A DNA stretch of 27,810 nucleotides from Lachnospiraceae bacterium (GTDB lineage: Bacteria > Bacillota > Clostridia > Lachnospirales > Lachnospiraceae), in contig JAFRCB010000203.1 of the NCBI GenBank assembly GCA_017404585.1, positions 1 through 27,810 on the forward strand. Direction: 5' to 3'. Made by a program: the position numbers and the translations under genes. This document shows, piece by piece, positions 5,392 through 27,810 of the stretch; within the stretch, counting starts at the first letter, position 1; each line of letters begins with the position of its first letter. The notes under the pieces were generated by a model. That model saw only the letters and a program-made list of their open reading frames with translations. It was not told the origin of the DNA and made no database searches.

Positions 5392-5410
5392 TATTTCAAC
5401 AGCACAAGAG

Positions 5411-5495
5411 CTTTCACGGGAGAGAGTCCAGCGACCACCGAAGAGGCAAGTGACAAAGATCACGAATCTTTCAGGTAAAAGGACCGGGAAGCCGG
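5411..5495 (+). promoter_or_regulatory. Glycine riboswitch aptamer
   Basis: The stretch carries the conserved blocks of a glycine-sensing aptamer in order: CGGGAGAG (from 5417), ACCGAAGAGGCAA (from 5436), AATCTTTCAGG (from 5465) and AAAAGGACCGGG (from 5477). Only one complete aptamer is seen; the 30 nt after it could hold the short remnant helix found in singleton glycine riboswitches. It lies between the grd promoter and grdX, and an expression-platform hairpin follows at 5526-5565. Glycine binding should raise expression of genes that consume glycine, which fits a glycine reductase operon. Confidence 0.9.
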
Positions 5496-5525
5496 CGTTC
5501 TGAATCTGACCAAAGCGTTCGAGAC

Positions 5526-5565
5526 AGGAGGCGAAACGAGAGTACATACTTTCGTGTCGCCTCCT
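5526..5565 (+). terminator. Expression-platform hairpin of the glycine riboswitch
   Basis: The arms 5526-5542 and 5549-5565 pair at 15 of 17 positions (AGGAGGCG with CGCCTCCT) around a 6-nt loop. The run after it (TATGCTTTGC) has few T, so termination may be weak. The stem also contains AGGAGG, so sequestration is conceivable, although the true grdX ribosome binding site lies further on at 5593-5599. Confidence 0.65.
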
Positions 5566-5606
5566 TATGCTTTGCAGGCAGAGAATTGATCAAAGGAGCG
5601 GCATTG

Positions 5607-6011
5607 ATGAAACAGAAAAACGTGATAGTGACCAATAATCCGCTTGTGTCAGAGAAGCAGCCCGGAAACCTTCCGGTGGAATATCTGGAGACGGACTATA
5701 TGGGCGTTCTGAAAGCAGCCCGGGATAAGATTCATAGCGGAGCGACTCTTCTCACCCACCCTCTTTACGGCAGCGTCAAGCCGGGGGAGACGCCGTACCG
5801 TTCCCTTCTGATCAGGGAGGGCGGCAATAAAGTCGATCTTCAGTCGCTGAGACTTATCGAAGCCGCAATGGAGACATGCCGCAAGTTCGAGGAACGTACA
5901 GGTCTTTTCGGAGCCGGGTCCGTCAGGGACTTTCAGGTCGTGGATCTGTCGCTGCTTATGAGCGCGCTCGGAGACTTTCATGAAAGCAGGCAAACATTAT
6001 CTTATAAGTAG
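5607..6011 (+). CDS. grdX: GrdX family protein
   Basis: This is a 134-residue protein of the GrdX family, the small protein of unknown role that heads glycine, sarcosine and betaine reductase operons. Recognisable blocks are VTNNPLV near the start, the AARDKIHSG helix, and LLTHPLYGSVKPGETPYRS in the centre. The ATG at 5607 is chosen because AAAGGAG lies at 5593-5599; an in-frame TTG at 5586 lies upstream of that site and is rejected. It is the first gene after the glycine riboswitch, 15 bp before the grdE-like gene. Family members are assumed to help assemble or regulate the reductase; the biochemical role is not known to me. Confidence 0.88.
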   Translation: MKQKNVIVTNNPLVSEKQPGNLPVEYLETDYMGVLKAARDKIHSGATLLTHPLYGSVKPGETPYRSLLIREGGNKVDLQSLRLIEAAMETCRKFEERTGLFGAGSVRDFQVVDLSLLMSALGDFHESRQTLSYK

Positions 6012-6026
6012 AAAGGAGGGAACAGC

Positions 6027-7307
6027 GTGAAACTGGAATTAGGCAAAATACTTATACATGATATCTGTTTTGCGGAAAAATCAGAGATCAGAGACGGGGT
6101 CCTGTATGTTTCAAAGGAAGAGCTGGAAAAGATCGTAATGCAGGAAGAAGGCATTCAGTCTGTCAGCTTTGATATAGCAAAACCCGGTGAGTCAGTCCGC
6201 ATAACTCCGGTCAAGGACGTTATTGAACCCCGTGTCAAGGTCGAGGGTCCGGGAGGCATATTCCCGGGAATGGTCGCAGGAGTTGAAACTGTCGGCTCCG
6301 GAAAAACATATGCTCTTAAAGGAATGGCGGTGGTGACAGCAGGTCCCATCGTAGGTTTTCAGGAGGGTGTGATCGACATGACCGGTCCGGGTGCAGAGTA
6401 CACACCGTTCTCCAAGACACTGAATCTTGTCATGGTATGCACTCCGGTCCCGGGACTTGAGGCTCACGACTATGAGTCGGCAGTGCGCCTGTCCGGCTTC
6501 CGCGTTGCGGCAGCTCTCGGCGAGCTGGCAAGAGAGCTTCAGCCGGATGAGACAGTTGTATACGAGTGCAGTGACCTCAAGGAAAGCTTCGAGAAGTATC
6601 CGGGACTTCCCAGAGTCGCCTATGTTCAGATGCTTCAGAGCCAGGGACTTCTGCATGATACCTATGTGTACGGCGTCGATGCCAAGAAGATTCTCCCGAC
6701 ACTGCTCTATCCTACGGAAGTTATGGACGGAGCTATCGTATCCGGAAACTGCGTTTCCGCATGCGACAAGAACCCGACCTACATTCATGAGAACAACAGC
6801 GTGGTAGAAGACCTCTTTGCACAGCACGGAAAGACTTTGAATTTTGTGGGTCAGATCGTCACCAATGAGAACGTATATCTGGCAGACAAGGAGCGCTCCT
6901 CCAACCAGACTGCAAAACTGTGCAGGATGCTTGGCCTTGACGGCGTCATTGTTTCCCAGGAAGGCTTCGGAAATCCGGATACAGACCTTATCATGAACTG
7001 CAAGAAGATCGAAGCTGAAGGCATCAAGACAGTCATCATCACTGACGAGTATGCGGGCAGAGACGGAAAATCCCAGTCCCTGGCTGACGCTGATGTCGCA
7101 GCGGATGCAGTCGTTACCGGAGGCAACGCCAACGAACTGGTAATTCTTCCGAAGCTTGACAAAGTTATCGGCACATTGGCCTACATCAATAAGATCGCCG
7201 GCGCGAACGCCGAGACCCTGAGAGAAGACGGTTCTCTCGCGGTGGAGCTGCAGGTCATTACCGGCGCCACCAATGAGACCGGCTTCGGACGGCTCAGCGC
7301 GAGATAA
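6027..7307 (+). CDS. grdE: Glycine/sarcosine/betaine reductase component B, pyruvoyl-type proprotein (GrdE-like)
   Basis: Component B binds the amino acid substrate as a Schiff base on a protein-bound carbonyl group, so that selenocysteine chemistry can release the amino group. The 426-residue chain is a proprotein of the GrdE/GrdG/GrdI family. The expected self-cleavage site is Asn241-Cys242 in SGNCVSACDKNP; the new N-terminal Cys would become the pyruvoyl-type cofactor. Cleavage there gives 241 and 185 residues, close to the roughly 25 and 22 kDa subunits known for component B. It begins with GTG at 6027 behind GAAAGGAGGG and sits 10 bp ahead of its selenoprotein partner. The glycine riboswitch favours glycine as substrate, but sarcosine or betaine cannot be excluded. 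Confidence 0.92.
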   Translation: MKLELGKILIHDICFAEKSEIRDGVLYVSKEELEKIVMQEEGIQSVSFDIAKPGESVRITPVKDVIEPRVKVEGPGGIFPGMVAGVETVGSGKTYALKGMAVVTAGPIVGFQEGVIDMTGPGAEYTPFSKTLNLVMVCTPVPGLEAHDYESAVRLSGFRVAAALGELARELQPDETVVYECSDLKESFEKYPGLPRVAYVQMLQSQGLLHDTYVYGVDAKKILPTLLYPTEVMDGAIVSGNCVSACDKNPTYIHENNSVVEDLFAQHGKTLNFVGQIVTNENVYLADKERSSNQTAKLCRMLGLDGVIVSQEGFGNPDTDLIMNCKKIEAEGIKTVIITDEYAGRDGKSQSLADADVAADAVVTGGNANELVILPKLDKVIGTLAYINKIAGANAETLREDGSLAVELQVITGATNETGFGRLSAR

Positions 7308-7317
7308 GGAGGCAGAA

Positions 7318-8631
7318 ATGGGAAAGATTAAAGTTGTACATTATATCAACCAGTTCTTTGCCCAGATAGGCGGCGAAGAAAAGGCAGACTTCCCTGCGCA
7401 ACTGCGCAAGGGTGAGGTAGTCGGACCGGGCCTTGCGCTCACGCAGGCATTCGGCGATGAGGCTGAGATCACAGCGACGATCGTGTGCGGCGACAGCTAC
7501 TTCAATGAGAATATCGAATCCGCAACAAAGCAGATTCTTGACTGGGTGAAGGAAGAGGCTCCGGATGTATTCATCGCAGGTCCTGCTTTCAATGCGGGCC
7601 GCTACGGCGTAGCCTGCGGCACGGTCGCCGATGCGGTTCAGTCCGAACTCAATATTCCGTCAGTGACCAGTATGTACGTTGAGAATCCCGGAGCTGACAT
7701 GTTCAAGGACAAGGTTTATATCGTATCTACCAAGAACAGTGCAGCCGGTATGAGAGGAGCCATCAAGGCTCTGGCTCCGCTTGCTCTGAAGCTGGCAAAG
7801 GGAGAGAAGATCGGAGCATCCTGCGAAGAAGGCTATATCCCGCAGAATATCCGTGTCAACTTCTTCGAGAAAGAGAGAGGATCCAGGCGAGCCGTCGATA
7901 TGTTGCTTAAGAAGCTTGCCGGCAAACCGTTTACGACGGAATATCCGATGCCGGTATTCGACCGTGTAGCTCCGAATCCGGCAGTTAAGGATCTTTCCAA
8001 GGCGACGATTGCCCTGGTAACTTCCGGCGGTATTGTGCCGAAGGGCAACCCGGATCATATCGAGAGCTCCAACGCTTCTCACTTCGGCGAATATGACATT
8101 ACCGGCGTGATGGATCTCACGGCAGAGACCTATGAGACCGCTCACGGCGGCTACGACCCGACCTATGCCAATCAGGATGCGGACCGTGTACTTCCGGTCG
8201 ATGTCCTGAGAGATATGGAAAAAGAGGGCGTGATCGGAAAACTCCATCATCTCTATTATGCGACTGTCGGTAACGGAACCGCTGTTGCGTCCGCCAAGGC
8301 ATTTGCAGAAGAAATCGGAAGGAGACTGGTCGCGGATCATGTAGATGCCGTGATACTGACCAGCACGTGAGGAACCTGTACACGTTGCGGCGCAACGATG
8401 GTCAAAGAAATTGAGCGTGCAGGCATTCCGGTCGTTCATATGTGCACAGTAACACCGATCTCCATGACGGTCGGCGCTAACCGGATCATTCCGGCTATAG
8501 CGATCCCGCATCCGCTCGGAAATCCCGCTCTGACACCGGCTGATGAGAAGAAGCTCAGAAGACGTCTTGTGGAGAAAGCATTGAAGGCGTTGACAACAGA
8601 GGTAGACGGACAGACGATTTTTAAAGACTGA
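7318..8631 (+). CDS. grdB: Selenoprotein subunit of glycine/sarcosine/betaine reductase component B (GrdB-like)
   Basis: This is the selenocysteine-containing catalytic subunit. The frame starts at ATG 7318 (MGKIKVVHYINQFF, behind AAGGAGG), meets TGA at 8368-8370 (codon 351), and continues without another stop to TGA 8629-8631. The full 437 residues are the usual GrdB length. The residues around the internal TGA (LTST-U-GTCTRCGATM) are the conserved UxxC active site of the family, and similarity runs unbroken across it, so it is recoded and is not a pseudogene. A hairpin suitable as a bacterial SECIS lies 13 nt downstream. No grdA lies between grdE and grdB, unlike many glycine reductase operons; that layout is closer to sarcosine or betaine sets. 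The selenoprotein A and acetyl-phosphate-forming component C must be encoded elsewhere. Confidence 0.95.
8383..8397 (+). promoter_or_regulatory. Candidate bacterial SECIS hairpin
   Basis: CGTTGC (8383-8388) and GCAACG (8392-8397) form a perfect 6-bp stem with the loop GGC, starting 13 nt after the recoded TGA and lying inside the coding sequence. Position and size fit a bacterial selenocysteine insertion element recognised by SelB. Clostridial SECIS elements are poorly conserved, so identity rests on position. Confidence 0.6.
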
Positions 8632-16729: not shown

Positions 16730-19700
16730 TTATATTGATCTTGCCCTGTAAAGGAAGGTCACGATCTGGCCTCTCAGACAATTATCGTTGATACCGAAAT
16801 TCCCTTTCTTCGGACCTGATGTGTATCCGTTCGTAATCTTTTTCTGAGATCCCCACAAAATGGCATTGTAGAAAACGTGGGACTTCGGAACATCTTTGAA
16901 CGGACTCACAGCGGCAGGCTTCGGTGCAGGTTTGCCTTTGAGTCTCCAGAGGAACATCATACACTCACCGCGGCTGACATTGCGGTTGATTCCGAACGTG
17001 CCGTCCGAATAGCCCTTGGTAATGCCTTTCTGGGAGCCCCAGAGGATCGCTTTGTAGAAGACATGGGTCGTAGGAACATCCTTGAACGGGGATTTAGACA
17101 CCGCCCTTGGAGCCGGCTTGCCGACATATCTCCACAGGAACATCATCATTTCTCCTCGGGTGCAGTTCCGGCCGATGCCGAATGTGCCGTCCGGATAGCC
17201 TTTTGTGATCCCGGCGTCGGCTGCCCAGTAGATGGCATTGTAGTAAGGGTGTGACAGGTCTTGAACGTCGGAGAAGCCGTTGACTGCCGGTTTCGGCGTA
17301 GGAGTAGGTGTGGGTGTAGGCGGTGCTTTGACTGTCAGCGAATATGTTGCGCTGCCCGCATTATAGTTAGTGGCGGCTTTTGCCTCGGCTGTGATGGTGG
17401 CAGTGCCCATTCCTTTGATCGTCACCTCGCCGGTCGCGCTGTCGACCGTGGCAACAGCTGAATTGTCGGAAGTAAAGGTCACCTCGGCGGTAGTGGCCTT
17501 CGTCAGTGTGTTGGTAAAAGCCGCATCCGTTGTTTTCTTTGTTATGCTGCTCTCGGCAAATGCAAATCCCGCAGCCGCTTTCTTGATTGTAAAGTTGACG
17601 GTCTTAGTGCCCTTGTAATCCCCTGTCTCTGTTGCCGTTATCGTCACGACCGCTGTGCCCGCGTTCTTGTTCTTCGAGTAGGCTACGGTATAGTCCGTGC
17701 CCGAAGTCAGTGTCTTTGTCCCGTCTTTTACGGTGATGGCTGGTTTCTTGGCCTTCCCGTCATATGTGTAGCTGGTCGGCTTGAGGGTCACTGTGCACTC
17801 GGAAATAGCCTTGGCCGCATATTCATGCGCGATCTTCTGAGTTTTTCCAAGGACGATGCTCTTTGAGAGGACAGGTAGCTCGAGGTATACCTTTCCGGAA
17901 TTGTCGTACATAGCGAGCGGTAATGTAATGCCGCTTTTAGTATGCTTTTGGGGAGTGCGGAGGACTTCAAGATTTTTGCAGTCAGAGATCATCGTATTAA
18001 AATCGTACACTCGCGATGTGTCAAAGCTGCTCAGATTCAGACTGGTAAGGCTGCTGCAACCAAGGAACATATAATGCATATCCTTCACGTTGGATGTATC
18101 AAAGCTGCTCAAATCCAGATTTGTGAGGCTGCTACAGTCCTTGAACATCCAACACATGTTTGTCACGTTGGATGTATTAAAGCTGCTCAAATCCAGATTT
18201 GTCAGGCTGCTGCAGCCCTTGAACATTTGAAGCATATATGTCACGTTCGACGTATCAAAGCTGCTCAGGTTCAGATTGGTCAGGTTAGAGCAGCCCTCGA
18301 ACATTTGCATCATATTCGTCACGTTCGATGTGTTAAATTTGCTCAAATCCAGATTTGTCAGACTGCTGCAATACCAAAGCATATAATCCATAGCCGTCAC
18401 GTTCGATGTGTTAAACCCGCTCAGATCCAGATTTGTCAGACTGCTGCAAGAATCAAACATGCAACACATATCCGTTGCACTCGATGTATCAAAACTGCTC
18501 AGATCAAGATTGGTCAATCGATAACAATGCTGAAACATTGCGTTCATAATCGTCACATTCGAGGAGTCAAAATTGCTAAGATCCAGCTTTGTCAGTTCTT
18601 CAAGGTCAGCAAATATCCAATGTGAATTCGTCGGCAGATACACTGTTCCATAGGATACAGAGATTGATTTGAAACTTTCTGTGTCAATTCCGATGCTGTA
18701 GAGCTTATGTTGCCATGTTTCCCAGAGAGTCCCCTGATCTGAATAAAGACTGAGTGCGTAGTTGGAAGACTTGAACGAGGCAGTGACACAGTCTCCTACG
18801 AATATCGTTCCTTTCGCCAGCTCTTTATCTTTTGCAAGAATCAGACTCGTTGATGAAACAGGAATCGCCGTATGCTCTATACCCGCACGGTTATACAGAG
18901 TGACCGGCAAATTAATTATACATGAGGTCTTTTTTGGTGTTCCGAGAAGTCTTAATGCATTGCAGTTCCTGAATACATTTACTGCGTTGCCACTCGGCAC
19001 GTTACTCAGGTCAAAATTTGTAAGAACCAATGTCCTGAGATTCAAGCAGTTTGCGAACATGGCGCCAATATCTGTCAAACTCGAAGTATTAAAGCTGCCA
19101 AGGTCCAGGCATGTCAGGTTTTGGCAACTGGCGAACATGGCGATCATAGTCGTCACTTTCGATGTATCAAACTCGTCGAGGTCAAGGCTTGTCAGGCTTC
19201 TGCAGTTATAGAACATGTACTGCATATTTGTTACTTTTGACGTAATAAAGTTGGACGTATCCAGATCCACCAGATTATTCAGTTCCTGGAACAGGAAGCC
19301 TGAATCAGCCGGCAGGTATAACTTACCGCCCGAACGGATTGATTTGATTTTACTGGATTCAAAGCCTGACTTGGAAAGCCAGTCCTTCCACAGAGTCCCG
19401 CCATTCGTATAAAACTTCACTTCACCGGTTGCAGAATCGAACGTCGCCGTCACGTCTTCGCCTACCTGCACTTTGTTTCCTTCGACTCCGACGATCTCTT
19501 CCGGAACCTCATTTTCAATCTCGTCGTCGGCCTCCTTCGAAGATTCGCCGGTAGTTAAGCCGGGCGCTTCCTCCGAAGATTCGTCGGCATCCAGGTCTGA
19601 CGGTTCCTCTGGAATGACAGCCTCCGCCTCTACTTCCGATGCGTCGTCTACTGTTTCAACTGATTCGGGTCCGGCCGCTTCATCAATTTCCGGCACCGGG

Positions 19701-19834
19701 GCTGCTTCTTCAGCCACCAGGATTTCTTCCGCCACATCGCCTTCCTCCGGGGATGCGTAGACTGCGGCGGGCATTACTCCTGCAATCATGAATATTGACA
19801 TCATGACTGCCAAATATTTCTTCATTGCCTTCAT
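16730..19834 (-). CDS. Secreted SLH-anchored surface protein with DUF285/BspA-like repeats
   Basis: This is a 1034-residue cell-surface protein. A signal peptide ends near Ala27 (VYA before SPEEG). Residues 28-115 are very acidic and low in complexity. Two blocks of 26-residue repeats follow (consensus SSLTNLDLSSFDTSNVTNM then MF and Cys): about three units near 190-270 and eight near 410-615, the DUF285 or BspA-like type found on host-associated bacteria and mycoplasmas. Two Ig-like domains (about 669-840) follow; the first contains SYTYDGKAKKPAITV. A PTPTPTPTPKP spacer follows. Three SLH repeats (about 850-1030) end the protein and should bind a secondary wall polymer. GGAAGGAG precedes the ATG. 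Likely roles are adhesion or envelope structure; the partner is unknown. Confidence 0.93.
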   Translation of the reverse strand: MKAMKKYLAVMMSIFMIAGVMPAAVYASPEEGDVAEEILVAEEAAPVPEIDEAAGPESVETVDDASEVEAEAVIPEEPSDLDADESSEEAPGLTTGESSKEADDEIENEVPEEIVGVEGNKVQVGEDVTATFDSATGEVKFYTNGGTLWKDWLSKSGFESSKIKSIRSGGKLYLPADSGFLFQELNNLVDLDTSNFITSKVTNMQYMFYNCRSLTSLDLDEFDTSKVTTMIAMFASCQNLTCLDLGSFNTSSLTDIGAMFANCLNLRTLVLTNFDLSNVPSGNAVNVFRNCNALRLLGTPKKTSCIINLPVTLYNRAGIEHTAIPVSSTSLILAKDKELAKGTIFVGDCVTASFKSSNYALSLYSDQGTLWETWQHKLYSIGIDTESFKSISVSYGTVYLPTNSHWIFADLEELTKLDLSNFDSSNVTIMNAMFQHCYRLTNLDLSSFDTSSATDMCCMFDSCSSLTNLDLSGFNTSNVTAMDYMLWYCSSLTNLDLSKFNTSNVTNMMQMFEGCSNLTNLNLSSFDTSNVTYMLQMFKGCSSLTNLDLSSFNTSNVTNMCWMFKDCSSLTNLDLSSFDTSNVKDMHYMFLGCSSLTSLNLSSFDTSRVYDFNTMISDCKNLEVLRTPQKHTKSGITLPLAMYDNSGKVYLELPVLSKSIVLGKTQKIAHEYAAKAISECTVTLKPTSYTYDGKAKKPAITVKDGTKTLTSGTDYTVAYSKNKNAGTAVVTITATETGDYKGTKTVNFTIKKAAAGFAFAESSITKKTTDAAFTNTLTKATTAEVTFTSDNSAVATVDSATGEVTIKGMGTATITAEAKAATNYNAGSATYSLTVKAPPTPTPTPTPKPAVNGFSDVQDLSHPYYNAIYWAADAGITKGYPDGTFGIGRNCTRGEMMMFLWRYVGKPAPRAVSKSPFKDVPTTHVFYKAILWGSQKGITKGYSDGTFGINRNVSRGECMMFLWRLKGKPAPKPAAVSPFKDVPKSHVFYNAILWGSQKKITNGYTSGPKKGNFGINDNCLRGQIVTFLYRARSI
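18011..18615 (-). repeat. Eight tandem 78-bp coding repeats
   Basis: Units begin at 18011, 18089, 18167, 18245, 18323, 18401, 18479 and 18557, exactly 78 bp apart, each encoding one 26-residue DUF285-type repeat. Neighbouring units in the middle are highly similar at the DNA level, the outer ones less so. This fits expansion by unequal exchange. Three more units with the same period lie around 19079-19312. Confidence 0.9.
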
Positions 19835-20106: not shown

Positions 20107-22059
20107 TTAATACAGCTTCGCGCCCGCCGGAATCGCGTCGCTCACGATCATGAGATTGAGCTTCTCCTCGCCGTCCTCCTTGTGGACCGCGCTCATGAGC
20201 ATGCCGCAAGATTCGACTCCCATCATCTGTCTCGGCGGAAGGTTCACGATAGCCACAAGCGTCTTGCCGATGAGCTCTTCCGGCTCGTAGAATGCGTGAA
20301 TTCCCGAGAGAATCGTGCGGTCTGTGCCCGTGCCGTCATCCAGTGTGAACTGAAGGAGCTTCTTGGACTTCTTGACCGCAACGCAATCTTTGACTTTTAC
20401 TACCCTGAAATCGGACTTGCTGAAAGTCTCGAAATCGACAGTCTCCTCAAAGAGCGGCTCTGTCTCGGCGTTCTCCGGAGCGACTGCCTTCGGAGCTTCC
20501 GGAGCCTTTGGAGCGGCCTCTTCGGCTGCCTTTTCAGCAGGTGCGTCAGATGCACCTTTGCCGCCTAAGGTCTTCATTGTCGGGAAGAGCAAAACATCCC
20601 TGATGGCTTCCGCGCCGGTGAGCAGCATGACAAGTCTGTCGATGCCGTAGCCGATGCCGCCTGTCGGAGGCATGCCGATCTCGAGGGCGTTCAGGAAGTC
20701 TTCGTCGGTGTGATTGGCTTCCTCGTCACCTGCCGCAAATGCTTCCTCCTGCGCTGCAAATCTCTCTCTCTGGTCGATCGGATCATTCAGCTCGGAGTAG
20801 GCGTTGCACATCTCCCAGCCGTTCATGAACATCTCGAAGCGGAGGACCTTGCCCGGATTCTCCGGATCCTTCTTTGTCAGCGGTGAGATCTCGATCGGGT
20901 GGCCGGTCAGGAATGTCGGCTGGATCAGATGCTCCTCGACATACTCGTCGAAGAAGAGATTCAGAATGTCGCCGATCTTGTGGTGCGGCTCATAGTGGAT
21001 TTCGCGAGCGTCGCAGAGGGCACGGGCTTCTTCCAGTGTCTTCACTTCGTCGAAATCGACACCGGAGTACTTCTTGACAGCTTCTGTCATGGTGATGCGC
21101 GTAAAAGGCTTTCCGAGGTCAATGACATTGCCCTTGTAGTTAAGAAGGGTCGTTCCGAGAACTTCCTGGGCGACTGTCCTGTACATGTCCTCAGTGAGTC
21201 TCATCATGCCTTCGTAATCTGTGTAAGCCTGATAGAGCTCCATCAGAGTAAATTCCGGATTGTGCTTGATATCGAGACCCTCGTTACGGAAGACACGGCC
21301 GATCTCGTAGACTCTCTCAAGACCGCCGACGATCAGGCGCTTTAAGTAGAGCTCGAGGGAGATACGAAGCTTCTTGTCCTCATTCAGGGCATTGAAATGT
21401 GTGGTGAAGGGGCGGGCTGCGGCGCCGCCGGCATTTTCAACCAGCATCGGAGTTTCAACTTCCATGAATCCGCGCTCGTCGAGGTAGCGGCGGATCGCGG
21501 AAATGATCTGGGAACGCTTGACGAACACGTCCTTGGATTCCGGGTTCATGATGAGGTCGACATAGCGCTGACGATAGCGAAGGTCGGTGTTGGTCAGGCC
21601 GTGGAACTTCTCCGGAAGGATCTGGAGGGACTTGGACAGAAGAGTGACTTCCTTTGCGTGAATGGAAATCTCGCCCATCTTTGTTGTGAATACGATGCCC
21701 TTTACGCCGATGATGTCGCCGATGTCGAGTCTCTTGAATGCTTTGTAATCCTCACCGAGGTCATCGCGGGACGCATAAATCTGGATGGTGCCCTGAAGGT
21801 CCTGAATGTGACCGAAGGAGGCCTTGCCCATGACACGCTTTGACATGAGACGGCCGGCGACGGAGACTTCCTTGTCTTCAAAAGCCGCGTAGTTGTCCTT
21901 GATTTCCTGCGAGTGCTGTGTCTGATCGTAGGTCACGATCTCAAATGGATTCTTACCTTCAGCGACAAGCTCCGCCAACTTTTCTCTGCGGACCTTGCGA
22001 AGCTGGTTAAGATCCGGCTCCTTAGCCTGTCCCTGCTGCTTACTCTGATTCTGTGCCAT
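20107..22059 (-). CDS. lysS: Lysyl-tRNA synthetase (class II) with C-terminal tRNA-binding domain
   Basis: This enzyme charges tRNA-Lys in the cytoplasm. The normal class II LysRS occupies about residues 1-500: an anticodon-binding OB fold near 65-150, motif 2 [18 protein letters not shown], and motif 3 [14 protein letters not shown]. The chain then continues through a flexible Ala/Pro/Glu-rich linker (about 500-540) into an extra OB-fold domain (about 545-650). That domain has [18 protein letters not shown] and [16 protein letters not shown], the Trbp111/EMAP-II type seen at the end of methionyl-tRNA synthetases. Most bacterial LysRS lack it, so 650 residues is long. The domain probably improves tRNA capture or dimer contacts. 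AGGAGGAG precedes the ATG. It lies 107 bp after greA. Confidence 0.95.
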
Positions 22060-22853: not shown

Positions 22854-22882
22854 TTGACAGTCGTCCGCTTTCCTGCTACAAT
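22854..22882 (+). promoter_or_regulatory. Promoter of the T-box operon
   Basis: TTGACA (22854-22859) and TACAAT (22877-22882) have a 17-nt spacer, a near-consensus housekeeping promoter. Start of transcription is expected near 22889. A perfect GCGCCG/CGGCGC hairpin at 22908-22923 lies between it and the T-box. Confidence 0.88.
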
Positions 22883-22940
22883 CACTTTTGTTCGTTAAAG
22901 AGCAAAAGCGCCGCAAACGGCGCACACAAACCAACATATA

Positions 22941-23198
22941 AAGACTATGACGAAGACGGTCGGGACTTATCCGGAGTACAGAGAACCTGCATTTGCTGAG
23001 AACAGGCTGAAGGAAATCCCAGAACTATCACTTCCGAGTCGGAGCGCTGAGCGGCCCTGCCGTTAGGTTCTCCCGCGAAGGCTGCGTTAGTGCCAGGGAC
23101 TTGATGGAGTCTTAGAGAGGCGCCGAAAGGCGCAATTTGAGTGGTACCGCGAGTTGATATTTCAGCCCGTCTCAAAGAAATTTGAGGCGGGTTTTTTT
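22941..23198 (+). promoter_or_regulatory. T-box leader, specifier read as AUC (isoleucine)
   Basis: This RNA leader senses uncharged tRNA and lets transcription continue when the cognate amino acid is short. The T-box core AGTGGTACCGCG lies at 23140-23151; its TGGT would pair with a tRNA ending ACCA. Stem I runs from GACT (22943-22946) to AGTC (23037-23040), with a kink-turn-like ATGACGAA near the start, GGGA/TCCC above the specifier loop, and AGAGA in the distal part. The 3' side of the specifier loop is AGAACTATCAC (23021-23031). ATC at 23027-23029 is followed by the expected A, so I read isoleucine. ACT (Thr) or TAT (Tyr) in another register fit less well. A terminator closes the leader. 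Confidence 0.93.
23166..23198 (+). terminator. T-box-controlled terminator
   Basis: CCCGTCTCAAA (23166-23176) pairs with TTTGAGGCGGG (23181-23191) across GAAA, 11 pairs including one G-U, followed by seven T at 23192-23198. It begins 15 nt after the T-box core, as expected for an antitermination switch. Confidence 0.93.
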
Positions 23199-23328
23199 AT
23201 GCAGACAAAGCCTGCCTCCGCATATGCCGGGTGTACTGACTGACAGAAATCCGGCATACAGGACTCTTGAACAAGAAGCATCATACCGCTCGTTATCGAA
23301 CAATTATCTTACTGAGGAGGTTTTTGAA

Positions 23329-25650
23329 ATGTCGGATACTGCTGTAAAGAATAGGGCGGCACTGGAAATGGAGAGGGAAGTTGCCAATCGTATCATGGCG
23401 CTGCGTGTTGACAGTGGATACACACAGGCCGAGATGGCTGATATGACAGGGTTCTCCCTCGAGGACTACACGATGTATGAGGAGGGCGGCGCAGATCTTC
23501 CGTTCTCGTTTATTCACAAATGCGCGTCTGTCTTCGATGTCGAGATCATGGAGCTTCTCGAAGGTCGTACTCCGCTCCTTACCGGCTACACGCTGACCCG
23601 CGCGGGCGGCGGCCAGCTGACGTCTGTGGAGCCGGGCGTTCTCATCAAGAACATCGCGCCGCTTTTCAAGGACAGAATTGCGGATCCGTATTTCGTTGTT
23701 TACAACTATAACGAAGAGCAGCAGCACACGCCGATCGAGCAGGTCACCCATCCGGGTCAGGAGTTCGACTACGTCCTCGAGGGATCCATGAAGATCAGGA
23801 TCAAGGACAATGAGGAAGTCCTGCATGCCGGCGACAGCATTTTCTATAATTCTTCCAATCCGCACGGCATCATCGCCGTGGGCGGTCAGGACGTCCGCTT
23901 CCTCGCGCTCGTACTGCCGGAGGAAGGCGCGGATGTTGTCTGGGAGAAGGGTCGTCTCAGATCAAGAGAAGAAGTTGATGTAATTGAAAAGGAAGCGTCC
24001 CCGGATGCCCTTAAGGCTCCGAACTTCGTATCCAATTTCGTCTCAGTCAAGGAGAGGGAAGACGGATATCCGACGGAAGTCACTTTTAAGAATACAGAGA
24101 AGTTCAACTTCGCGTTCGACGTCGTCGATGCTATCGCGGAGAAGGAGCCGGATCGTCTGTGTATGGTCCACCTCGACAAGGATAAGAATGAACGCCGCTT
24201 CACGTTCCAGGATATGAAGAAAATGAGCGCCCGGGCTGCCAACTATTTCAAGGCCCAGGGCATCAAAAAGGGCGATGCCGTCATGCTGCTTCTTCGCAGG
24301 AACTGGGAGTTCTGGCCGATCATCGTCGGTCTGCACAAACTCGGAGCAATCGCGCTGCCGGCAACAGACCAGCTCAAGCAGAAGGATCTGGAATACCGTT
24401 TCCAGACCGCTGACGTCAAGGCTGTCTGCTGCACTGCAACAAGTGCCTGCGTGGAAGAAGTCGAGTTTGCCGTTAAGAACTGCCCGTCAGTCCAGCACCT
24501 CTTTACGACGGGAGGAAAGAGAGAGGGCTGGCATTCATTTGATGATGAATACGAAATGTATTCCAGCCGCTACCGCCGCACAGGCGATTCCATCCGCGGC
24601 AACGACACGATGCTGATGCTTTTCTCATCGGGAACATCAGGCTACCCGAAGGCTGTTGTTCACAGCTGCAAGTACGCGCTCGGACACTTCGTCACAGCGA
24701 GATACTGGCAGTGCGTACACGCCGAAGGCCTGCATCTGACCATCTCCGACACCGGCTGGGGCAAGGCTCTGTGGGGCAAGCTGTACGGTCAGTGGATGAA
24801 CGGCGGGGCAACATTTGTATACGATTTCGACCGCTTCCATGCGGACGACATTCTGCCGCTGTTCGGCAAATACAAGATCACCACATTCTGCGCGCCGCCC
24901 ACAATGTACAGATTCTTTATCAAAGAGGATCTCAGCAAATACGATCTGTCCTCCATCCGTCACGCCAGCATCGCGGGTGAGGCCATGAACCCGGAGGTAT
25001 TCAACCGCTTCAGAGAAGTGACCGGTATCTCCATCATGGAAGGTTTCGGACAGACAGAGACTACACTGACGGTCGGCAACTTTATCGGCATGACGCCGAA
25101 GCCGGGCTCGATGGGCAAGCCGTCTCCGATGTACAAGGTCATGCTGATGGCTCCGGACGGTACGGAAGCCAGGGTCGGCGATCCGGGCGAGATCTGCGTG
25201 CGCTACGGAGCTGATGAGCCGTGCGGCCTCTTCAAGGAGTACCTGAATAATAAGGAAGCGACGGACAACGTAAAGGACAATGGCTGGTATCACACCGGAG
25301 ACCTTGCGTGGAAGGACGAGGACGGCTACTTCTGGTATGTCGGCCGTACGGATGACATCATCAAGTCCTCCGGCTACCGCATCGGACCGTTCGAGATCGA
25401 GAGCGTCATCATGGAACTTCCGTACGTCCTCGAGTGCGGCGTATCCGCCGTCAAGGACGATATCCGCGGTCAGGTCGTAAAGGCAAGTATCGTTCTTGTC
25501 AAGGGAACAGTGCCGTCTGATGAGCTGAAGAAGGATATCCAGCAGTATGTCAAGAAGCGCACTGCGCCTTACAAGTACCCGAGAATCGTCGAGTTCAAGT
25601 CCGAGCTCCCGAAGACGATCAGCGGAAAGATCATCCGCAATCAGCTGTAA
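23329..25650 (+). CDS. Fused XRE regulator, cupin and acyl-CoA ligase
   Basis: This is a 773-residue three-domain protein. Residues 15-80 form an XRE helix-turn-helix (RVDSGYTQAEMADMTGFSLEDY). Residues 85-195 form a cupin barrel (HPGQEFDYVLEGSMKIRI, then SNPHGI), with His and Glu suited to metal or ligand binding. From about 250 an ATP-dependent acid:CoA ligase of the medium-chain/aryl type follows: P-loop SSGTSGYPKA near 431, SDTGWGKALWG, GFGQTETT, YHTGD, and VGRTDDIIKSSGYR near 670. Catalytic Lys767 lies in SGKIIRNQL. It would convert a carboxylic acid, ATP and CoA to the acyl-CoA. ATG 23329 follows GAGGAGG; an in-frame upstream start lies inside the terminator. The context suggests a branched-chain acid substrate. 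The N-terminal half could sense the acid or autoregulate the operon. Confidence 0.9.
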   Translation: MSDTAVKNRAALEMEREVANRIMALRVDSGYTQAEMADMTGFSLEDYTMYEEGGADLPFSFIHKCASVFDVEIMELLEGRTPLLTGYTLTRAGGGQLTSVEPGVLIKNIAPLFKDRIADPYFVVYNYNEEQQHTPIEQVTHPGQEFDYVLEGSMKIRIKDNEEVLHAGDSIFYNSSNPHGIIAVGGQDVRFLALVLPEEGADVVWEKGRLRSREEVDVIEKEASPDALKAPNFVSNFVSVKEREDGYPTEVTFKNTEKFNFAFDVVDAIAEKEPDRLCMVHLDKDKNERRFTFQDMKKMSARAANYFKAQGIKKGDAVMLLLRRNWEFWPIIVGLHKLGAIALPATDQLKQKDLEYRFQTADVKAVCCTATSACVEEVEFAVKNCPSVQHLFTTGGKREGWHSFDDEYEMYSSRYRRTGDSIRGNDTMLMLFSSGTSGYPKAVVHSCKYALGHFVTARYWQCVHAEGLHLTISDTGWGKALWGKLYGQWMNGGATFVYDFDRFHADDILPLFGKYKITTFCAPPTMYRFFIKEDLSKYDLSSIRHASIAGEAMNPEVFNRFREVTGISIMEGFGQTETTLTVGNFIGMTPKPGSMGKPSPMYKVMLMAPDGTEARVGDPGEICVRYGADEPCGLFKEYLNNKEATDNVKDNGWYHTGDLAWKDEDGYFWYVGRTDDIIKSSGYRIGPFEIESVIMELPYVLECGVSAVKDDIRGQVVKASIVLVKGTVPSDELKKDIQQYVKKRTAPYKYPRIVEFKSELPKTISGKIIRNQL

Positions 25651-25880
25651 AAGCGAAGGGATTCGGCTTGGAATTATGTCAGCTGGCGCTGACCCGAATG
25701 TCGCGGCAAGTCTCGCGAGCGAGATTTGAACTGTCAGTCAGGCTCCCCCTGCAAGTCCAGACAAGAGGAATGACGCTTTACATGTTCGATTTTTAGTACT
25801 ATCATATAAAGAACCTATCTGCCGGTCTCCGGGGGTGCTCTGATGAGCATCCCTGCGGGGCGGGCAGTGCTGTGATTAAC
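25651..25880 (+). other. Structured intercistronic region, no gene seen
   Basis: No reading frame here looks real. Several stem-loops are visible on the plus strand. ATTCGG (25661-25666) pairs with CCGAAT (25694-25699) and encloses GTCAGC/GCTGAC (25678-25683, 25688-25693). AAGTCTCGC (25708-25716) pairs with GCGAGATTT (25719-25727). GGGTGCTC pairs with GAGCATCC around TGAT near 25833-25852, inside an outer CTGCC/GGCAG pairing. None has a T run. This could be an RNA processing or stability element, or an unrecognised regulatory RNA, between ligase and ferredoxin genes. Confidence 0.5.
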
Positions 25881-25881
25881 A

Positions 25882-25915
25882 GGTAATTGTATTACAAGTA
25901 CCCGTTTTGAATAAT
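25882..25915 (+). promoter_or_regulatory. Dyad overlapping a possible internal promoter
   Basis: GGTAATTGTA (25882-25891) and TACAAGTACC (25893-25902) form a 21-bp palindrome with one mismatched pair. It covers a weak -35 (TTGTAT, 25887-25892) that is 17 nt from a good -10 (AATAAT, 25910-25915). The oxidoreductase genes may thus have a second, regulated promoter. The XRE domain of the upstream fusion is one candidate binder. Confidence 0.4.
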
Positions 25916-26027
25916 CAACAAAGGACATATGAGTGTGTTTACGGCTGCGAAGCAGACGCTTACATACTCAGCGATCCGACACCTGCATGCAAATGCAAAA
26001 ACTATTTTTACGAGGAGACACCAGGTT

Positions 26028-26291
26028 ATGAAGAGAAGGTTCAAGGTTGTATTCAACCGGGAAAAATGCAAGGGCTGCGAGCTCTGTATTAACTTCTGTC
26101 CCAAGGGCATTTTAGCCCTCGATCCGGAAGTCAATGCCAAGGGTTACCATCCGGCCGGCATCGTTGATCAGGAAAAGTGCATCGGCTGCGCAAGCTGCGC
26201 GACCATGTGTCCCGACTATTGCATCAGTATCTATCAATTAGAGGACGGGGAAGAGTACGAAACTTCCGAGTCCCAGGCTAAACAGATGTAA
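26028..26291 (+). CDS. 2[4Fe-4S] ferredoxin subunit of 2-oxoacid oxidoreductase (delta)
   Basis: This 87-residue iron-sulfur protein has two complete cluster motifs: CKGCELCINFCPKG and CIGCASCATMCPDYC. It is the delta (KorD/VorD-like) subunit that passes electrons between the oxidoreductase and free ferredoxin. I use ATG 26028 (MKRRFKVVF), behind CGAGGAGA, since the first cluster motif then starts at the usual distance. An in-frame ATG at 25929 has AAAGGA ahead of it and would add 33 basic residues (MSVFTAAKQTLTYS), so a longer form cannot be excluded. It ends 16 bp before the alpha-subunit gene. Confidence 0.92.
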   Translation: MKRRFKVVFNREKCKGCELCINFCPKGILALDPEVNAKGYHPAGIVDQEKCIGCASCATMCPDYCISIYQLEDGEEYETSESQAKQM

Positions 26292-26307
26292 CGGGAGGAG
26301 AATGATC

Positions 26308-27387
26308 ATGTCAAGAATCCTGATGAAAGGCAACGAGGCCTTTGCCGAGGCGGCTATCCGCGCAGGCGTCAAATGTTATTTCGGTTATCCGATCACACCG
26401 CAGAATGAAATTCCCGAATATATGTCCCACGAGCTTCCGAAAGCCGGCGGCGCATTCATTCAGGCAGAATCCGAGCTTGCAGCCATCAGCATGGCTTACG
26501 GCGCTGCAGCCAGCGGCGGTCGTGTATTTATTTCCACGAGCTCCCCGGGACTTGCCCTGATGCAGGAAGGCATCGGCTTTATCGCGTCCTGCGAAGTTCC
26601 GCTCGTAATCCTCAACGTATCCCGCGGCGGCCCCGGCGTCGGCGGCATTCAGCCCGGCCAGGCAGACTACCTGCAGGTAACGCGCGGCGGTTATAACGGC
26701 GACGTGAAGGTGCCTGTATTTGCACCGTCCAGCATTCAGGAATGCGCAAATCTCATCTATGAGTGCTTCGACATCGCTGAAGAGTACCGCAACCCGGTCG
26801 TCATCCTCGCGGACGGCATGCTGGGCCAGATGATGGAGCCGGTGGAACTTCCGGAATCCAAGGGAATCGTTCCTGTAGAAGATATCAACAAGGGTAAGCC
26901 GTGGGCAATCACAGGCACGGATTACCACGAGGGAAGAAACGTCGTTTATTCACTCCGTCTTCAGCCGCAGGTCCTCGAAGATCACGTCGAGCACCTGTTC
27001 AAGAAATATGACAAGGCTGAGAAGGAACTGGTCCGCTGGAGCGATCAGGGCCTTGAGGATGCGGAGATCGTATTTGTCGCGTTCGGCACAATGTCCAGAC
27101 TGTGCGCCGAGGCATGCGAGCTGCTCGAGGAGCGCGGAATCAAGGCCGGTCTCATCAGACCGATCTCCCTGTGGCCGTATCCGGAAGCTGCATTTGACAA
27201 GATTGGACCGAATTGCAAGGTCGTTATTTCCACAGAGCTTTCCATGGGCCAGATGATGACTGACGTCAAGGCTGCTGCCAAAGGACGCTGGCCGGTCGGC
27301 CTCATTCACCGTACCGGCGGTATGGTCCCGTCCTCTATCGAGATCGCGGACCGTGCGGAGAGCGCATTAAAGGAGGCGATGAAATGA
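26308..27387 (+). CDS. vorB: 2-oxoacid:ferredoxin oxidoreductase alpha subunit (VorB-like)
   Basis: This is the alpha subunit of a four-subunit, CoA-dependent 2-oxoacid:ferredoxin oxidoreductase. The enzyme interconverts a 2-oxoacid plus CoA with acyl-CoA, CO2 and reduced ferredoxin, and the family can run in either direction. The 359 residues start SRILMKGNEAFAEAAIRAG and contain GYPITPQNEIPEYM, ISTSSPGLALMQEG and RGGPGVGGIQPGQADYL, which fits the branched-chain (VOR) or 2-oxoglutarate (KOR) groups. ATG 26308 is preferred to ATG 26302 because GGAGGAG (26294-26300) is only 1 nt from the latter but 7 nt from the former. It overlaps the beta subunit by 4 nt. The VOR assignment rests on overall resemblance and context. 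Confidence 0.9.
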   Translation: MSRILMKGNEAFAEAAIRAGVKCYFGYPITPQNEIPEYMSHELPKAGGAFIQAESELAAISMAYGAAASGGRVFISTSSPGLALMQEGIGFIASCEVPLVILNVSRGGPGVGGIQPGQADYLQVTRGGYNGDVKVPVFAPSSIQECANLIYECFDIAEEYRNPVVILADGMLGQMMEPVELPESKGIVPVEDINKGKPWAITGTDYHEGRNVVYSLRLQPQVLEDHVEHLFKKYDKAEKELVRWSDQGLEDAEIVFVAFGTMSRLCAEACELLEERGIKAGLIRPISLWPYPEAAFDKIGPNCKVVISTELSMGQMMTDVKAAAKGRWPVGLIHRTGGMVPSSIEIADRAESALKEAMK

Positions 27388-27810
27388 AGACAGTATTTGA
27401 ACCGACAAGAGGAATGATCCAGACTGATACATCCTACTGCCCGGGCTGTACACACGGTATAGCACACCGCATTATCATGGAAGCTCTCGAGGAGAGAGGT
27501 TCTCTCGGCAACACGATCGGCGTTGTACCGATCGGCTGCTCCATCAATGCGCACCACTTTATGAACGTTGACATGTGCGAATCCACTCACGGACGCGCTC
27601 CGGCGATTGCCGCAGGCATCCGACGTGTCCATCCGGACCAGGTGGTCTTCACATATCAGGGCGACGGCGACCTCGCTTCCATCGGAACAGCTGAGATCAT
27701 CCACGCCGCTCACCGCGGTGAGAAGTTCACCACATTCTTTATCAACAACGCTATTTACGGCATGACCGGCGGCCAGATGGCTCCGACGACACCGATCGGC
27801 CAGAAGACGA
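27384..27810 (+). CDS. vorA: 2-oxoacid:ferredoxin oxidoreductase beta subunit, TPP-binding (partial)
   Basis: This is the thiamine-diphosphate-binding beta subunit, cut by the window edge after 142 codons. Near the start it has YCPGCTHGIAHRII, the cysteine motif of KorB/VorA-type subunits. GDGDLASIGTAEIIHAA and then INNAIYGMTGGQMAPTT form the TPP and magnesium site (GDGD to NN). ATG 27384 overlaps the stop of the alpha subunit (ATGA) and follows AAGGAGG. The gamma subunit should lie just beyond the edge. Confidence 0.92.
   Translation, partial: MKTVFEPTRGMIQTDTSYCPGCTHGIAHRIIMEALEERGSLGNTIGVVPIGCSINAHHFMNVDMCESTHGRAPAIAAGIRRVHPDQVVFTYQGDGDLASIGTAEIIHAAHRGEKFTTFFINNAIYGMTGGQMAPTTPIGQKT

Follow-up and report, generated by a model that had tools for sequence, protein, structure and literature searches.

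We describe an operon that probably makes isoleucine from scavenged 2-methylbutyrate under the control of a T-box, found at the end of a 27,810-nucleotide stretch of DNA (hereafter, the window; contig JAFRCB010000203.1 of the Lachnospiraceae bacterium assembly GCA_017404585.1). A T-box leader with an isoleucine specifier stands ahead of a fused acid:coenzyme A (CoA) ligase and of genes for a 2-oxoacid:ferredoxin oxidoreductase of the 2-oxoisovalerate:ferredoxin oxidoreductase (VOR) type, and a valine-type counterpart in relatives most likely uses isobutyrate; the specifier codon therefore indicates which acid each ligase probably uses. The T-box, its specifier, the protein domains, the gene order, the concordance of specifier with ligase and the absence of the classical branched-chain genes are supported by the sequences compared here.

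Rumen microbes need branched volatile acids, and isoacids are fed to cattle. The bacterial genes and control systems for the use of these acids are poorly defined. Branched-acid carboxylation in rumen bacteria was reportedly described by Robinson and Allison.

T-box leader and specifier codon

The Rfam alignment, a stem search and an alignment of ten leaders placed the traits of a T-box in the window leader, namely a Stem I with a specifier matched to the pathway, a UGGN core and a downstream terminator. This is no chance match, because the same core together with an isoleucine or valine specifier lies upstream of 179 of 204 homologous fused ligases. UGGU was invariant in all 190 leaders that could be called, ligase and LeuA leaders combined; the discriminator base of the isoleucine, valine and leucine tRNAs is A, which is complementary to the last base of this motif.

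The original prediction, made from the window alone, was conditional on an isoleucine specifier, and the codon found is AUC. Its reading register was fixed by comparison with relatives, in which AUC is constant and the flanking bases are variable. Read one base upstream, the codon would be UAU or CAU and differs among relatives; read one base downstream, it would be UCA or UCC in one class and the stop codon UAG in the GUA class. We adopted the register giving AUC, GUA and GUC, since no other assigns a single amino acid to each clade. When the leader alone was folded by minimum free energy, no useful T-box structure emerged (z -1.11). Two further T-boxes were found in the window genome, upstream of a threonyl-tRNA-synthetase-like gene and of tryptophan genes (gene names by sequence inspection).

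Survey of related loci and ligase tree

A scan of genome contigs returned 583 candidates, of which 80 with fused ligases were kept as named loci, mostly metagenome-assembled genomes of Clostridia from ruminant and other guts. The set of fused ligases comprised 204 sequences after filters that excluded ligases shorter than 690 aa or scoring below 850 bits (3 of 228 rows were duplicates). Specifiers were called by scoring the 11 bases 3' of the codon; a simple regular expression was discarded as it missed or miscalled some leaders.

A T-box core was found closely upstream of the ligase in most named loci. The 179 called leaders carried 124 AUC (isoleucine) and 55 valine codons (52 GUA and 3 GUC) and no other codon, and the codon was constant amid variable surrounding bases; 25 of the 204 ligases and 10 of 21 LeuA genes were left without a call. 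Two fused ligases occur in 36 of the 80 named loci, with both leaders callable in 30 of these. In a tree of all 204 ligases built with FastTree, with uncalled rows left open, the specifier changes only twice, compared with at least 42 changes for shuffled labels (n = 50). The second of these changes is local, the valine leaders of L087 and L114 lying inside the isoleucine clade, where the sister ligase L096, going by the record titles, shares its assembly with L087.

A few rows of the survey need separate mention. For the second ligase of L079 the automatic GUA call was implausibly placed, and the codon read by eye is GUC, also valine. This locus, from the apparently cultured Erysipelotrichaceae bacterium NK3D112, whose record carries no metagenome mark, has both types of ligase together with a LeuA module. 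Two rows are artefacts, L091 (a TIM-ligase with negative coordinates) and L098 (a CTT call in a leader clipped at the contig start). G303 was counted as having no T-box call though Rfam detects one, the ligase of G135 is split over contigs, and neither a T-box nor ilvC was found in G342. At L046 (10508-11544) the sequence after a valine T-box matches a ligase only in part, which may reflect decay of the copy or misassembly.

The fused ligase and its acyl pocket

The ligase combines four Pfam domains, HTH_3 (residues 22-76), Cupin_2 (138-194), AMP-binding (268-625) and AMP-binding_C (689-767), a fusion that had been missed in the original prediction. The arrangement is widespread; in a protein search the best 120 listed homologues had cupin and AMP-binding domains, and many had a listed helix-turn-helix (HTH) domain as well. 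By sequence, the nearest solved structure is 3ETC (631.6 bits; runner-up 349.9), which also ranks first by fold; about 50% of the residues are identical when the folds are aligned, and the model has a mean predicted local distance difference test (pLDDT) of 76. The top NCBIfam match is MbcS (NF047394), of which the window ligase is classed as a relative and not a family member. The 3ETC enzyme, MacsMa, is described as favouring 2-methylbutyrate and as adenylating C3 to C8 acids (PMC10455477), and the MbcS of Staphylococcus aureus as active on 2-methylbutyrate and isobutyrate but poorly so on isovalerate, and as feeding fatty acid synthesis (PMC10026030). These closest characterised relatives back the earlier guess that the enzyme is a ligase of branched acids. 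The window ligase shares with both the AMP-forming ligase domain, and an acyl-pocket Trp and the adjoining Lys align with those of 3ETC; it differs in its N-terminal HTH and cupin domains and in lying under the MbcS cut-off.

Residue 478 (window numbering) follows the specifier without exception, being Gly in 124 of 124 isoleucine-type and Ala in 55 of 55 valine-type ligases; the 25 uncalled rows hold 17 Gly and 8 Ala. The independent switch of specifier is matched here, with Ala in L087 and L114 and Gly in their sisters L060 and L096. The two types have no residue in common at six columns; of these, 478 is the only one with the valine-type residue in L087 and L114. By itself this convergent Gly478Ala switch is modest evidence, because 182 of 728 columns separate L087 and L114 from both sisters. 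In the alignment to 3ETC, K479 corresponds to Lys256, which is named in the title of the 3ETC entry, and W482 to Trp259; these numbers rest on an offset of 23 derived from Gly459, Tyr460 and Lys461 named in PMC10455477, which describes Trp259 as critical to substrate binding in MacsMa. A bulkier side chain at 478 would suit a smaller acid, which would fit Ala with isobutyrate and Gly with 2-methylbutyrate.

The window genome also holds a split paralogue (L115 5301-7685, G000:C205) with the HTH-cupin part and the ligase as separate adjoining genes, an arrangement also seen in L127-L129. No T-box was found there at an E-value of 0.001. It carries Ala at the position of Gly478 of the window ligase and might serve isobutyrate.

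Operon layout and oxidoreductase

The promoter (as a consensus match), the T-box, the acid:CoA ligase and the delta, alpha and beta oxidoreductase subunits proposed originally are all present in one direction at 22854-27810 on the plus strand (Table 1) of a draft genome (G000) of 2.16 Mb that is 64.9% complete. The delta and alpha subunits are full, the beta subunit is incomplete because the contig (C66) stops at 27810, and gamma would lie past the contig end; all four are present in L120-L123, which come from four genomes of the window's genus, in the order T-box (isoleucine), ligase, ferredoxin, alpha, beta, gamma. The alpha subunit scored 463.5 bits against PRK07119 (VorB), above the curated cut-off of 399. 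The enzyme shares with VOR an alpha subunit over the cut-off and adjacent beta and delta subunits (gamma too in relatives), and the proposed difference is that it would operate here in the carboxylating direction. The 377 bases (25651-26027) that separate the ligase and the delta subunit had been missed in the first reading. A promoter-like site lies in this gap at 25777-25805, and L120 and L121 have fewer bases between the two genes. The VOR genes may have a transcription start of their own.

Table 1. Features of the T-box operon in the window
Feature	Position	Strand	Basis or remark
Sigma-70-like promoter TTGACA-17-TACAAT	22854-22882	+	Consensus scan, 11/12; match to consensus only
T-box leader RNA, RF00230	22938-23177	+	77.1 bits, E 6.6e-17
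Specifier codon AUC (isoleucine)	23027-23029	+	Rfam alignment; comparison across relatives
T-box core UGGUACCGCG	23142-23151	+	UGGU, expected pairing partner the tRNA acceptor end
Intrinsic terminator-like stem, alternative to antiterminator	23164-23193	+	13 pairs and T run
Fused HTH-cupin-acyl-CoA ligase of 773 aa, a predicted 2-methylbutyrate:CoA ligase	23329-25650	+	Pfam, NCBIfam, PDB, fold
HTH_3 domain of ligase, residues 22-76	23392-23556	+	Pfam
Cupin_2 domain of ligase, residues 138-194	23740-23910	+	Pfam
Codon of ligase Gly478	24760-24762	+	Alignment; residue follows specifier type
4Fe-4S delta subunit of 2-oxoacid:ferredoxin oxidoreductase	26028-26291	+	Family profile matches
Alpha subunit, VorB family; ATG at 26308 may be true start	26302-27387	+	PRK07119
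Beta subunit, incomplete	27384-27810	+	TPP_enzyme_C and PorB/KorB; full length in relatives L120-L123

VorA was found in 54 of the 80 named loci (in 52 of the 63 that span 10 kb or more), and 38 of the 80 encode an aminotransferase homologue. Of the loci with 6 kb or more past the last ligase (n = 22), 16 have a co-oriented VOR downstream and 3 have one on the opposite strand. The order at L049 is T-box (isoleucine), ligase, a 220-aa protein, ferredoxin, VorA, VorB, VorC and aminotransferase; the 220-aa protein resembles a P-loop ATPase and has no Pfam match, and the aminotransferase, the single one checked, scored above the cut-offs of two branched-chain aminotransferase families. We also drew an even class sample of 291 genomes, with at most three candidates scored per genome, in which the VOR alpha subunit was present anywhere in the genome in 50 of 55 T-box-ligase genomes compared with 126 of 225 genomes without a fused ligase.

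Loss of the classical branched-chain pathway

A check for missing biosynthetic genes had been proposed with the original prediction, and it came out in its favour. Within the genus of the window (25 genomes, 9 with the fused ligase), neither ilvC nor ilvD was over cut-off in the window genome (65% complete) or in the eight other carriers. For ilvC the contrast was 0 of 9 ligase genomes (best match 26 bits) against 13 of the 16 others, or 15 of 16 counting fragments (Fisher p 1.1e-4 over cut-off and 4.9e-6 with fragments), and the counts for ilvD over cut-off were identical. The chance of all nine misses arising through incompleteness alone is about 7e-9.

In the class sample, ilvC (E-value up to 1e-20) was found in 8 of 55 called T-box-ligase genomes and in 148 of the 236 others (p 4.7e-11). 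Threonine dehydratase TIGR01127 (E-value up to 1e-50) was found in 4 of these 55 and in 95 of the 236 (p 5.7e-7). In a search of 48 ligase genomes, taken from 48 of the 80 named loci, ilvC was over cut-off in 10, compared with 14 of 14 control genomes. By the number of ligases at the locus, ilvC was present in 7 of 18 single-ligase genomes and in 3 of 30 two-ligase genomes (p 0.027). Searches for one type of threonine dehydratase and for citramalate synthase covered 20 of the 48, and 5 of the 7 ilvC-positive single-ligase genomes gave no match to either enzyme at an E-value of 1e-30. These five seem able to make valine but without an apparent source of 2-oxobutyrate, and they hold only an isoleucine ligase at the locus.

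Proposed mechanism

We infer the acid substrates, the direction of the oxidoreductase, antitermination and flux as follows. When isoleucine is short, the anticodon of uncharged tRNA-Ile would pair with AUC and the acceptor end of the same tRNA with UGGU; the leader would adopt the antiterminator and transcription would enter the operon. The ligase would convert 2-methylbutyrate, ATP and CoA to 2-methylbutyryl-CoA. Using CO2 and reduced ferredoxin, the VOR-type enzyme would carboxylate this ester to 3-methyl-2-oxopentanoate. The last step, to isoleucine, would fall to a branched-chain aminotransferase, which is encoded in the locus of many relatives and elsewhere or unseen in the window genome. 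In relatives, a second ligase under a valine T-box would supply the same oxidoreductase, most likely with isobutyrate.

Several observations weigh against this scheme or temper the counts behind it. The leader scored 77.1 bits against RF00230, under the Rfam gathering score of 93, which is the curators' score line and not a structural trait; the T-box is missing from a default Rfam scan because its score lies under that threshold. The base after a T-box specifier is usually a purine, and it is C in 44 of the 124 AUC leaders. The ligase scored 437.7 bits against MbcS, below the family cut-off of 850, and the structure model is uninformative on the pocket because its pLDDT falls below 50 at residues 475-478. 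No aminotransferase was found in the stretches retrieved around the operon in the genus of the window, and in the class sample the ligase is mostly solitary: of the 38 loci long enough to assess (a further 12 fell short), just one has VOR directly downstream. To the incompleteness of the window genome must be added that 4 of the 9 genus members with the ligase have a dehydratase match of 505-516 bits, which falls short of the ilvD cut-off (618) and is taken here for a paralogue. Both ilvC and ilvA are present in four T-box genomes of the class sample, and the three tandem-ligase genomes with ilvC also carry ilvA. Ten tandem genomes without ilvC gave no match for the type of threonine dehydratase searched or for citramalate synthase either, so the absence of 2-oxobutyrate enzymes is not special to single-ligase genomes. 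Finally, the genome counts treat related genomes as independent though they are kin, and the comparison within the genus is the cleanest.

The strongest rival explanation is the priming of branched fatty acids for membrane lipids. The ligase would act as the S. aureus MbcS does and supply 2-methylbutyryl-CoA as the primer, the isoleucine T-box would switch it on because isoleucine shortage starves the usual primer route, and VOR would run oxidatively. That MbcS is the top NCBIfam match, and an enzyme that feeds fatty acid synthesis (PMC10026030), speaks for this, as do eight genomes of family f33 (L175, L188, L197-L199 and L201-L203) that keep ilvC and ilvA beside a fused ligase and in which no T-box was found (by Rfam scan for L175 and L197, and by core motif only for the other six); the f33 ligases possibly have a lipid or degradative role, or have lost the switch. 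Yet ilvC is far rarer in T-box-ligase genomes, which need another source of isoleucine and valine because it is mostly lacking, and lipid priming leaves the lack of ilvC and ilvD as unexplained as the aminotransferase homologue in 38 of 80 loci. An oxidative VOR induced under isoleucine shortage would squander the amino acid, and the valine leaders suit two amino acid products. We therefore consider lipid priming unlikely.

Two further explanations appear to us highly improbable, to a similar degree. One is amino acid breakdown, in which VOR and the ligase would be degradative and yield acyl-CoA, ATP and a branched acid; VorB-type enzymes are usually annotated as degradative, and the window holds glycine reductase genes and a glycine riboswitch, a trait of fermentation. 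T-boxes, however, activate genes when an amino acid is scarce, AMP-forming ligases favour acid activation, and ilvC and ilvD are not over cut-off in the genus carriers. The other is that the ligase uses a different acid, such as an aryl acetate or a linear acid, with the isoleucine T-box as a general starvation signal. The range of C3 to C8 acids described for MacsMa (PMC10455477) would allow it, but the match between specifier and ligase clade involves two amino acids only, the nearest structure, 3ETC, is of an enzyme that prefers 2-methylbutyrate, the partner is of the VOR type, and the Gly/Ala difference by the acyl-pocket Trp suits a larger versus a smaller branched acid.

Leucine module and the wider pathway

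An isoleucine-only pathway, as originally conceived, is supported for the window but is too narrow for its relatives, which have the valine counterpart described above and a leucine T-box module. A LeuA homologue was found in 22 of the 80 named loci, and 10 of the 11 LeuA leaders called (of 21) read CUC or CUG; the LeuA leader of L107 was miscalled AAA, and its second candidate is CTC. A leucine T-box (CUC/CUG), a LeuA-like gene and a TIM-barrel/AMP-ligase fusion occur near the isoleucine or valine ligases in L049 (2756-7612), L073, L080, L088, L092, L102, L103, L108 and L160; at L049, LeuA is followed by the fusion, of 839 aa, and then by an amidohydrolase. Our guess is that this fusion activates isovalerate. 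In the 48 ligase genomes, leuB was over cut-off in 5, and another two gave full-length matches of 259-272 bits; this cut-off is a strict one, passed by just 9 of 14 control genomes.

More broadly, many uncultured gut and rumen Clostridia could have replaced the acetolactate pathway by a tRNA-coded salvage system, a proposal that we regard as evenly balanced between true and false. Each acid would have one ligase and one T-box (2-methylbutyrate for isoleucine, isobutyrate for valine, isovalerate for leucine), one VOR and one aminotransferase would be shared, the specifier would predict the substrate and the HTH-cupin part would be a sensor or regulator.

Relation to known systems

Known targets of T-boxes are tRNA ligases, transporters and genes of amino acid biosynthesis, those of the branched-chain pathways among them (PMC2494555). 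The window leader shares with the known ile/val T-box leaders (RF00230) the order of Stem I, specifier, UGGN core and terminator, and differs in that an acid:CoA ligase is controlled, often with one leader per ligase. Methanogens are reported to convert 2-methylbutyrate to isoleucine and isovalerate to leucine (PMC10658910), and the conversion of 2-methylbutyrate to isoleucine proposed here is shared with the branched-acid carboxylation of rumen anaerobes and methanogens. Among the matches listed by a full-text literature search, none reported an acid:CoA ligase with VOR under a T-box, or tRNA-sensing control or a comparable gene set for branched-acid carboxylation, though an earlier survey may list a case. 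The words "ferredoxin" and "acyl-CoA" are absent from the main texts of the T-box surveys PMC2494555 and PMC3766115, and a survey of human gut genomes for amino acid synthesis (PMC9026213) does not use the words carboxylation, isobutyr and 2-methylbutyr in its main text. The chemistry belongs to classical rumen physiology, and T-boxes as such are known; the matches listed show no tRNA-coded pairing of switch with acid.

A specifier codon that reveals the acid of a ligase would be a genomic marker of branched-acid cross-feeding. It would also correct predicted isoleucine and valine auxotrophies in gut genomes and give testable substrate predictions for many ligases annotated merely as AMP-binding proteins.

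Other features of the window

Elsewhere in the window, a glycine riboswitch (RF00504) lies upstream of glycine reductase genes (5407-8408). The GrdB gene (7273-8370) has a stop codon at its end that is probably read as selenocysteine, because a SECIS_4 element directly follows. On the minus strand, 16730-19834 encodes a surface protein of 1034 aa with DUF285/PARCEL repeats and SLH domains, and 20107-22059 a lysyl-tRNA synthetase with a MetG-like C-terminal tRNA-binding domain.

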